Part shown: in pieces, positions 1 through 15,301 of the stretch | Layout of the letters: the number at the start of each line of letters is the position of its first letter | Numbering within the stretch: the first letter of the stretch is position 1 | Assembly: GCA_028716025.1 (NCBI GenBank) | Contig: JAQUQP010000007.1 | Span: 1 to 24,601 of the forward strand | DNA from: a bacterium | GTDB lineage: Bacteria > UBA6262 | Length of the DNA: 24,601 nt | Direction: 5' to 3' | Program-made: the position numbers and the translations under genes | Notes under the pieces: generated by a model | The model's input: only the letters and a program-made list of their open reading frames with translations | What the model was told of the DNA's origin: nothing | Databases searched by the model: none

Positions 1-642
1 CGCCATTATAACAGCTACCGGCCCTCTATATTTAGAGATATTATTCACACTGTCGTATTTATCTTTTACCAGCAATCCGGCTGAGCTTGAAATTGAAGGA
101 GATAGTTTGTCTTTAGCTACGTTGGTGAGATTATCCCAGGGGGTGAGCATTATAACTCCTCTGGCGGAAACATCTGCATCGCCAGCCAGAGCGGCAACAA
201 CCCAGCAACCCATTGATTCGCCCCAAAGATATATTGGATCGCCAAATTGTTCCTTGGCTAGCTTTACCAATTTTTTTGCCCCAAAAACGATATTGCTTTC
301 AGTCATTTTACCAGGTTTCCCGCCATATCCGGGATATTCTGCCAATATCACCCGATAACCGGATTTCTCCAATGCATCAATATAGTATTTCCTAAAGACT
401 GCGGGCCCGGCATTACCATGAAAAATAATTATCGTTCCTTTATAGGAGAACTGTTTGGTCGCAGACATTATGCCCAGATAGTAAGATGAATCTTGTGGCC
501 ATAGCACCATATCATTGCCAAGCACTGCCTGCCTAATATCCTGGAATTGGAACTGGCCGGGATAGTAAAGTATTTTCCGCTGGATATCGCATCCAGTAAA
601 GAGTAATAAAGCAATAGGTAATAATTTTAGTAAATATTTCAT
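1..642 (-). CDS. Alpha/beta-hydrolase lipoprotein, C-terminus cut by window edge
   Basis: This open frame starts with ATG at 642 and stays open to base 1, giving 214 codons with no stop, so the 3' end lies outside the window. The N-terminus is a lipoprotein signal: basic start, hydrophobic stretch, then lipobox LFTG-C with Cys near residue 18. HGNAG (about residue 75) matches the oxyanion-hole loop and GESMG (about residue 140) the nucleophile elbow with catalytic Ser. This is the Bem46/serine aminopeptidase-like branch of alpha/beta hydrolases. The acid and His of the triad would lie past the edge. Its ATG overlaps the TGA of the radical SAM gene (ATGA), so it is probably translationally coupled as the last visible gene of the lipid operon. 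The substrate is unknown; a lipid or ester hydrolase at the membrane is an inference from context. Confidence 0.85.
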   Translation of the reverse strand, partial: MKYLLKLLPIALLLFTGCDIQRKILYYPGQFQFQDIRQAVLGNDMVLWPQDSSYYLGIMSATKQFSYKGTIIIFHGNAGPAVFRKYYIDALEKSGYRVILAEYPGYGGKPGKMTESNIVFGAKKLVKLAKEQFGDPIYLWGESMGCWVVAALAGDADVSARGVIMLTPWDNLTNVAKDKLSPSISSSAGLLVKDKYDSVNNISKYRGPVAVIMA

Positions 643-14414: not shown

Positions 14415-14730
14415 TATTTTCCAACCATTGTATTTTTAAACTTAGCTTATCCACATGTTCAAAAGCAGGCTGGGCGTCCATCTCCCAGGTAAAATCAGGG
14501 TCGGTATCACCAAAGTCACCATGGTTGGTACCATAAACATACGAACCAGGCCGTATTTGCGCTAATTTACTTTCAGCTAGAGTTTTCGCTTTGATCATTT
14601 TCAATGACCGGGAGGTTGTTCTTAATGCTGCGCTCATTGATTGGATCAGAACAACCATTCCTAATGATAAGATAGCTAAAGCTACCAATATTTCGATCAA
14701 CATAAAGCCCTGTTGGTTATTATTTTTCAT
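14368..14730 (-). CDS. gspI: Minor pseudopilin GspI
   Basis: A 120-residue pseudopilin, the usual small size for GspI. The leader MKNNNQQG is followed by FMLIEILVALAILSLG (Glu+5), then a helix with SMSAALRTTSRS and KTLAESKLAQI, the Ala-rich ending typical of GspI. A short beta domain (about 65-120) follows. The ATG lies inside the end of gspH (11-nt overlap) with no obvious Shine-Dalgarno, so coupling to gspH translation is likely. It also overlaps gspJ. GspI is thought to start tip-complex assembly with J and K. Confidence 0.87.
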   Translation of the reverse strand: MKNNNQQGFMLIEILVALAILSLGMVVLIQSMSAALRTTSRSLKMIKAKTLAESKLAQIRPGSYVYGTNHGDFGDTDPDFTWEMDAQPAFEHVDKLSLKIQWLENNEKKDVLVEMLQAKK

Positions 14731-15301
14731 GATCTAATACCGTCACTTGTCCGGTTAAACCGGAAAAAACTATGGTATATACGCTACCTTTGGTATCAGC
14801 TAAATATATATAGGCACTTTCACCTAATCCAGTGGGAAACATGGTGATATCTGGAGGTATGGCCCTTTTAAAAGTGATCCCATCCGGCAGGTTTTTTTCT
14901 TTAAGCAGGGCAGTGTTTATTTTGTTGAAGCTTGACAGCCTATTACCGTACTCCTGTTTTTCCAGCCAATAAGTTCCGTCATAGACGTCAAAATGCGCCC
15001 GATACCTTACCCCCTCGCTTATTGACGCCTGATAAGCATAGCGCAGCATCCAGGTGACAGTCTGTACGGAACTCTTAAGTTTAGAATCAAGATATATCTT
15101 ACTAAACGTAGGCATAGCCAGTAAAACCAAAACCATCATTATTGACATTATCATAGCTAATTCTATAAGGGTAAATCCCGTTAGAGAATTTCGTTTTCTA
15201 ACAGGATGAGTTGCTGGCAAATTAAAACCGATAGTTTTCTCTAACAGGGTAAAGCCCTTACTTTTGTTTCTCCGTCCAATTGCCAATATCATCCTCTCCA
15301 C
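14720..15301 (-). CDS. gspH: Minor pseudopilin GspH with duplicated prepilin motif
   Basis: A 193-residue pseudopilin. Two prepilin motifs are present: KSKG-FTLLEKTIGFN (Gly16) and SLTG-FTLIELAMIM (Gly42). Only the second is followed by the membrane helix (about 43-65), so it should be the working cleavage site; the first is followed by polar and proline-containing sequence. The C-terminal domain is beta-rich, with VFSGLTGQV near the end as in GspH/FimT. The annotated start is GTG at 15301; ATG at 15292 (codon 4) is equally possible and better placed for GGAG/GAGG. The 5' end overlaps gspG by 44 nt. The 26 codons between the motifs match an inverted-repeat segment described separately. Deleting them leaves a normal leader. 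GspH is the link between GspG and the I-J-K tip. Confidence 0.85.
   Translation of the reverse strand: MERMILAIGRRNKSKGFTLLEKTIGFNLPATHPVRKRNSLTGFTLIELAMIMSIMMVLVLLAMPTFSKIYLDSKLKSSVQTVTWMLRYAYQASISEGVRYRAHFDVYDGTYWLEKQEYGNRLSSFNKINTALLKEKNLPDGITFKRAIPPDITMFPTGLGESAYIYLADTKGSVYTIVFSGLTGQVTVLDHEK
15168..15257. repeat. Palindromic insertion-like element inside gspH
   Basis: Inverted ends CCCGTTAGAGAA (15177-15188) and TTCTCTAACAGGG (15237-15249) match at 11 of 12 positions with one GT-type mismatch. A third, shortened copy of the end (TTTTCTAACAGGA, 15194-15206) lies inside and can pair with the first as a local hairpin. The element is bracketed by an imperfect direct repeat, AGGGTAAA(T/G)CCC, at 15168-15179 and 15246-15257. 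The repeat copies are 78 bp (26 codons) apart, so the gspH frame is kept. This resembles in-frame palindromic elements such as those in Rickettsia. A short tandem duplication is the alternative. Confidence 0.6.

Follow-up and report, generated by a model that had tools for sequence, protein, structure and literature searches.

The window, by which we mean the whole stretch of 24,601 nucleotides analysed here, includes a type II secretion cluster in which the minor pseudopilin gene gspH (positions 14720–15301) bears an insert; this gene and all features of it described below lie on the minus strand. The gene opens at GTG, an internal ATG (first base at 15292) corresponds to the start of gspH orthologues, and the N_methyl domain of the product occupies residues 42–63. 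As the original prediction held, the product contains two GFTL(L/I)E motifs that are 26 codons apart: an upstream copy, GFTLLE (15239–15256), and the retained prepilin cleavage motif, GFTLIE (15161–15178), which alone is followed by a hydrophobic helix. With the insert, the leader is 39 residues long when counted from the orthologue-supported start and 42 residues long when counted from the GTG.

The insert is a 74-bp palindromic element (15176–15249), and we consider it near certain that it is a copy, non-autonomous, of a mobile palindrome that is flanked by a 4-bp target-site duplication. Its ends read CCCYGTTAGAG/CTCTAACRGGG, and the 74 bp and the 4-bp duplication together make 78 bp, or 26 codons. 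Both copies of the duplication read TTTA on the gene strand (TAAA on the plus strand) and fall in Phe-Thr codons, those of GFTLLEK for the first copy (15250–15253) and those of GFTLIEL for the second (15172–15175). The left terminal inverted repeat (CCCTGTTAGAGAA, 15237–15249) encodes the T-L-L-E-K part of GFTLLEK, a motif composed of the original Gly-Phe-Thr and the left end of the element; the right terminal inverted repeat (TTCTCTAACGGGA, 15176–15188) codes for S-L-T-G and contributes the cleavage site’s new Gly. The inverted arms and internal third copy that had been noted from the sequence are both present: the arms CCCGTTAGAGAA/TTCTCTAACAGG (15177–15188 and 15237–15248; 12 nt) are 92% complementary, and the third copy lies at 15194–15205. 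The right part of the element is itself a nested 31-bp hairpin (15176–15206) that resembles the 29-bp elements of genome G420, and its peptide, PVRKRNSLTG, is the same as that in a prepilin insert from Planctomycetes (locus L081). Folded as single-stranded RNA, a 98-nt region reaches −27.8 kcal/mol (z = −4.5), a stability matched by 0 of 200 shuffles; by itself, the 68-nt core gives a weaker fold (z = −1.8), which 10 of 200 shuffles matched. The 12-bp imperfect repeat that was thought to bracket the element exists, as part of a 27-nt repeat (74% identical, 78-bp spacing), but only 4 bp of it are a true target duplication; the similarity beyond TTTA is the element’s own end (CCCTGTTAGAGAA) resembling prepilin codons. 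The element thus has the terminal inverted repeats and the fixed-length target duplication (4 bp; TTTA/TTTA in the window) of a MITE. The third MITE feature, many dispersed copies per genome, is seen in other genomes; the window itself holds one copy only.

A search of the gspH product against 5.8 billion proteins returned ten matches, one of which is the window’s own product called from the internal start. Four close full-length orthologues (P0002–P0005; 68–86% identical) lack the 26 residues and have a normal leader, MILAIGRK-xKRxK-GFTLIEL, much as had been expected once 78 bp were removed. The more distant P0007 also lacks the residues, and P0006 and P0008 begin past the region and are uninformative. 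One distant pilin, P0010, has an insert of its own, FTPLE...KRKSLTGFTLLE, which suggested that the repeat is general. In the phylum of G030, a gspH match was found in 15 of 294 genomes; the best-scoring one is 29% identical (a short, weaker one is 40% identical), and none was near enough for a comparison of empty sites at the DNA level.

A search of a genome collection for the pattern ACCCYGTTAGAG-50..80-CTCTAACRGG identified at least 118 genome stretches with these ends, in records assigned to Patescibacteria lineages, Omnitrophota, Elusimicrobia, Planctomycetota, WOR-3, Nitrospirota and others. In one scan of viral contigs, no stretch had the end pattern, and no Rfam family matched at the elements from 12 sources. 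Among the matches listed, 71 of 122 copies have exact 4-bp duplications, compared with 8.1 expected from shuffled flank pairs; the duplicated tetranucleotide is mostly TNNA and is preceded by G in 63 of the 122, and G directly follows the pattern in 113 of 122 copies with enough flank. Some genomes hold around 40 copies each. In G003 an 11-mer of the end occurs 77 times versus once for its reversed control, and a slightly wider 11-mer occurs 65 versus 3 times in G031 and 84 versus 2 times in G032; G005 (4 versus 2), G033 (4 versus 3) and G034 (2 versus 1) differ little from the reversed control. The phylum of G031 (a Kaiserbacteria record) was covered with 145 genomes, of which 45 contain one or more end matches and 15 contain five or more. 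Within the parts of the open-access literature covered here, including portions of PMC10969869, PMC12455944 and PMC1564403 (most subscription papers lie outside this scope), the palindrome family is not described. The family is large and apparently undescribed, and its tiny members occur in uncultured bacteria.

The abundance of copies in other genomes bears directly on whether anything mobile is involved. An old local duplication or template switching within gspH could have given rise to both the second motif and the inverted copies, and the 27-nt repeat at 78-bp spacing, 74% identical, fits such an origin. However, the same ends, duplication and target codon recur in records from many phyla, also in genes that do not encode pilins, and the insert is missing from the close gspH orthologues. 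These observations already contradict a purely local origin, which we regard as extremely improbable.

Hairpins of 28–31 bp with duplications also exist, several of them nested in larger copies; those found by listing pairs with equal flanks have duplications by selection. The G420 stretches that were read, not picked by their flanks, contain mostly copies of 29 bp with a variable middle, and two G420 hairpins (L200 and L201) have unequal flanks. The same 28-bp hairpin lies inside related larger copies at L064 (7713–7740) and L089 (5945–5972), flanked on both sides by CCAG in one and by CAAG in the other (same strand), such that both copies of the duplication have changed together. On contig C1 of G347, single ends among the matches listed are mostly on the minus strand in the early part and on the plus strand later, which suggests that end orientation is biased relative to replication. 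A 2dG-II riboswitch (L038, 2445–2517; Elusimicrobia) and a group I intron (L025, 336–607; Sungiibacteriota) lie near elements.

Copies commonly reside in protein-coding genes without closing them. Of 37 exact-end copies read in G003, 33 have an exact duplication and 34 have a length that, with 4 added, is divisible by three. Fifteen G003 frames of at least 237 codons pass through or into a copy; ten of these were scanned against Pfam and all matched, nine of them above the curated cut-off (GH38, NAD kinase, two histidine kinases, ArsP permease, trypsin, laccase, glycosyltransferase and response regulator). The first 118 loci yielded 139 outermost copies among the matches listed, and 75 with an exact duplication were analysed: 51 lie outside any frame of at least 200 codons, 11 lie inside such a frame and leave it intact, and 13 interrupt one, in 11 cases within around 20 codons of its start or end.

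Prepilin genes recur among the coding sites. Among the matches listed, 11 of 138 distinct places have the right end at prepilin Gly-Phe-Thr codons (two each in L002 and L006, and one each in L004, L025, L045, L052, L070, L081 and L099); places were counted on both strands (141 elements when counted on one strand), and this sample, drawn by end pattern from the at least 118 stretches, gives no unbiased prepilin share. Equal 4-bp flanks occur in 10 of the 11, a count that comes from the both-strand recount, and 9 of the 11 inserts are in frame and open (L052 and L099 contain a stop). By our criterion there are 25 prepilin sites, 16 with TTTA, versus 10,828 occurrences of TTTA on both strands of 851,747 bases, again in a sample drawn by element and hence not unbiased. 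A stronger test comes from the Omnitrophica genome G004, in which 15 exact end matches (diverged copies left out) resolve to ten sites, seven of them in prepilins, for which the binomial chance is 9 × 10⁻⁶ even if prepilins made up one tenth of the permitted sites. Residence in pilins is lineage-specific: no prepilin-site copy was found among the 37 read in G003, among 91 end matches on the 722-kb contig of G347 or in the nine G420 stretches read. Of the GspG relatives with a readable motif (117 of 120 listed), six have element-like leaders, including the query P0011; those of P0011, P0050 and P0120 read (T/I)PLE...SLTG and those of P0041, P0056 and P0070 end in SLT.

In G004, a pair of copies located in different pilin genes share 96% identity across 45 inner bases, and their pilin flanks are 57–58% alike; other G004 pilin pairs are 52–67% alike downstream, and the remaining copy pairs, at 49–71% identity inside, have diverged too far to be informative. 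G008 has two copies that share 96% identity, with 62% downstream, and a third that is 89–93% alike, with 60–70% downstream. For these pairwise comparisons the left end was picked by equal duplication. Elements that are 96% identical inside unrelated pilin flanks indicate that the element moved and not the gene. Pilin paralogues do lie close together in L006 and L286, an arrangement that would favour spread by recombination, through conversion of leader sequences, over transposition. Such spread would not leave 96%-identical elements in flanks no more alike than those of other pilin pairs, nor would it place the same family, with clean duplications, in unrelated enzymes; we judge it very unlikely. 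That the palindrome inserts at prepilin codons and moves from one pilin gene to another in some lineages, as the original prediction proposed, is therefore well supported.

The inserts may also do something for their hosts. A basic stretch and hairpin before the cleavage site could tune export or translation and be selected for this; basic residues precede SLTG (for example, PVRKRNSLTG and RKKRSLTG) in the window, L004, L006, L081 and L286, and prepilins hold seven of the ten exact-end sites of G004. Against such use, the inserts of L025 and L070 have few basic residues there, only 6 of 117 GspG relatives (query included) have element-like leaders, and prepilin leaders are usually basic anyway. 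We think it unlikely that the inserts are used rather than neutral.

One of the GspG relatives links the short palindromes to a gene. P0056 has an N-terminal GIY-YIG domain that reads through ..RFLSLTG in frame into GspG, and is apparently a full-length element inserted at prepilin codons. GIY-YIG frames also lie between ends in L035, L087, L092 (two), L203 and L293, and a G035 match lies exactly between two ends. A dedicated search of 30 genomes for GIY-YIG genes found matches in 28, and 30 loci were examined together with the earlier ones. Close relatives (at least 53% identity) comprise 23 rows from 19 distinct loci, and 12 further rows are below 53%; some close matches lie outside the 30 loci (for example, second copies in G428, G349 and G018). 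In 17 of the 19 close loci both ends are present (one mismatch allowed), 269–297 bp apart (in L203 an additional right end lies at 316), the exceptions being L343, with neither end, and L347, with the right end only. Flanks are equal in 7 of the 19, and the other 12 have unequal flanks or no end pair. The frame ends in ..LTG in 12 of the 19. Over all 35 rows, inverted ends with equal flanks occur in 11, whereas mismatched pairings gave 1.25 on average and 3 at most. The unequal flanks of L337, L338, L035, L341 and L087 are often TTTA/TTCA on the left and TGAA/TAAA/TAAT on the right; selection for a stop codon, or recombination, may account for the difference.

The place of the nuclease gene, of 80–90 codons within around 270–300 bp, is fixed across phyla: it starts 16–29 bp from the left end and reaches the right end. 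Sixteen columns, including Y..Y, Y.G, R, H and E, are invariant in 20 of 20 rows; the rows L343, L347 and L350 are without an end pair. Third codon positions hold 49% of codon differences (79 pairs), which suggests selection on the nuclease protein. All four element proteins scanned match PF01541 with 56–61 bits, and the solved relatives are 1zg2 (E = 6.5 × 10⁻⁶) and, weakly, 1ywl (E = 0.23). The sequences at L360 and L352, with GIY-YIG proteins below 53% identity, have inverted ends of a different sequence and equal flanks of 4 bp (CCCCGCCCTTCCT, 289 bp, TGAA; and CCAGGTAGTGAAA-like, 325 bp, TATG), and sister families with different ends may exist.

Among the loci examined, an end-flanked close GIY-YIG copy is present in 13 of the 30 genomes and was not found in 17. 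Among these 17, the copy-bearing genomes G003, G004, G006, G032 and G347 gave only proteins of 37–47% identity, the best loci of which are without ends, and in loci L305–L334 GIY-YIG frames were recognised in 14 of 30 (15 frames), none with matching ends and duplication. Across the 145 genomes, the 15 with five or more end matches have more GIY-YIG genes than the others (median of 8 versus 3; P = 2.6 × 10⁻⁶), and the correlation between GIY-YIG and end counts, in which unrelated GIY-YIG genes are included, is modest (Spearman, 0.31). As GIY-YIG genes of some kind occur in 143 of the 145 genomes, this association is not specific to the element subfamily.

The palindromes could instead be moved in trans by an ordinary transposase (of the DDE, HUH Y1 or integrase type), with the GIY-YIG gene as a passenger or captured homing gene. 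The combination of inverted ends and a constant 4-bp duplication, typical of DDE enzymes, fits here, 17 of the 30 genomes have no end-flanked close GIY-YIG copy among the loci examined, and Y1_Tnp is found in 24 of the 30 copy-bearing genomes. None of the tested transposase families is general, however, and in 24 loci examined (a subset of the matches) no facing end pair surrounds a transposase gene. The one insertion-sequence-sized pair opened in G347, of 918 bp with equal flanks, holds a pilin-like frame, and the position of the GIY-YIG gene is constant in records of different phyla. Mobilisation by an ordinary transposase is, on this evidence, doubtful, and we continue to favour the nuclease of the long copies.

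As candidate general mobilisers, the following families were rejected: IS1380-type PF13701 is above the cut-off in 1 of 30 copy-bearing genomes, DDE_Tnp_1 occurs in 11 of 30 genomes and rve in 3 of 14, and Y1_Tnp is unrelated to copy number (7 of 15 copy-rich genomes versus 60 of 130 others). The first loci contain 11 equal-flank pairs of at least 688 bp; in the five for which frames were listed (L006, L112, L016, L045 and L022) no transposase was recognised by eye, and L006 and L045 contain pilins. The two 292-bp equal-flank pairs of L092 are nuclease copies. The 722 kb of G347 include eight pairs of more than 250 bp with equal flanks. The 918-bp stretch of G347 (contig C1, 303267–304184), with inverted ends and TAAA on both sides, has its pilin-like frame (GMTLLETLIA) between two short copies and could be a composite unit that carries a pilin gene.

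Taken as a whole, gspH probably contains a non-autonomous copy of the palindrome that was moved by the nuclease of the long copies. The element inserted at TTTA, within the Gly-Phe-Thr codons of gspH, and these 4 bp were duplicated. The reading frame of gspH stays open because the element lacks a stop codon and, with the duplication counted in, has a length divisible by three. The right end (..CTCTAACGGG-) gives a new glycine codon beside TTTAC, such that GFT is rebuilt right before the membrane helix; only the leader is lengthened, with cleavage presumably at the rebuilt motif. Full-length members of around 270–300 bp carry a single GIY-YIG gene between the same ends, and we propose that these long copies are the autonomous parents of the short palindromes. 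The GIY-YIG nuclease, to which the physical link is strong, is the best available candidate for the mobilising enzyme; it would make a staggered cut in the target, and perhaps cuts at the ends, to move both long and short copies. The many prepilin copies of some lineages may be due to the resemblance of GGN-TTT-ACC to the preferred target, (G)TNNA(C), and to the little harm that insertion there would do.

In behaviour, these copies are like Rickettsia palindromic elements, short palindromic repeats that lie in frame in protein genes and add a tolerated peptide (as described in PMC10969869). The likeness is limited to in-frame residence in coding genes; the hosts are different, and the elements reported here are set apart by a 4-bp duplication, by defined repeats at their ends and by full-length copies that carry a nuclease gene. 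Similar to the bacterial MITEs Correia, ERIC and Nezha, they have terminal inverted repeats, a fixed-length duplication, many copies and no gene, and are presumably moved in trans. Where the partners of those MITEs are known, they are DDE-type insertion sequences, whereas the only full-length partner found here carries a GIY-YIG nuclease, and copies are as short as 28–29 bp. Dispersed short palindromes are also a feature of REP/REPIN sequences and their RAYT (Y1 HUH) enzymes. That system is not known to make a target duplication; here the duplication is clear and Y1_Tnp is not associated with copy number. Correia and ERIC are also named in PMC10969869. The catalytic domain (PF01541) is shared with GIY-YIG homing endonucleases of the I-TevI type and with free-standing GIY-YIG proteins (UPF0213). 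Homing enzymes recognise only the uninterrupted target and not their own mobile DNA (according to PMC1564403), whereas here the gene sits between end repeats that are common to many dispersed short copies. Penelope-like retroelements use a GIY-YIG domain for mobility (PMC1564403) and carry a reverse transcriptase, unlike the element described here, which is around 280 bp in length with a gene of 80–90 codons.

We lean towards regarding these sequences as a new class of transposable element, with inverted ends of 10–14 bp, a 4-bp target duplication, a length of around 280 bp and a single GIY-YIG nuclease of 80–90 residues as its transposase. Its frame often ends in ..LTG, with the stop lent by the flank, and short derivatives, down to 28–29 bp, would invade genes in frame; in some lineages these would be prepilin hoppers, with ends and target that mimic the codons of GFT(L/P)LE. 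We know of no autonomous transposon as small as around 280 bp, and no GIY-YIG enzyme is—to our knowledge—known as a transposase that acts on terminal repeats. The passages of PMC1564403 considered here describe none.

If the nuclease mobilises the elements, GIY-YIG would become one of the few chemistries able to mobilise elements with inverted ends, and the long copies would be the smallest self-coding transposons, down to around 280 bp. For annotation, stretches of FTPLE...SLTG or NPVR...SNGV in proteins from these groups can be derived from the element. The family, known from records of Patescibacteria, Omnitrophota, Elusimicrobia, Planctomycetota and others, offers a testable case of selfish DNA that survives in needed genes, landing where the processing signal of the host is re-formed and the extra peptide would be removed.
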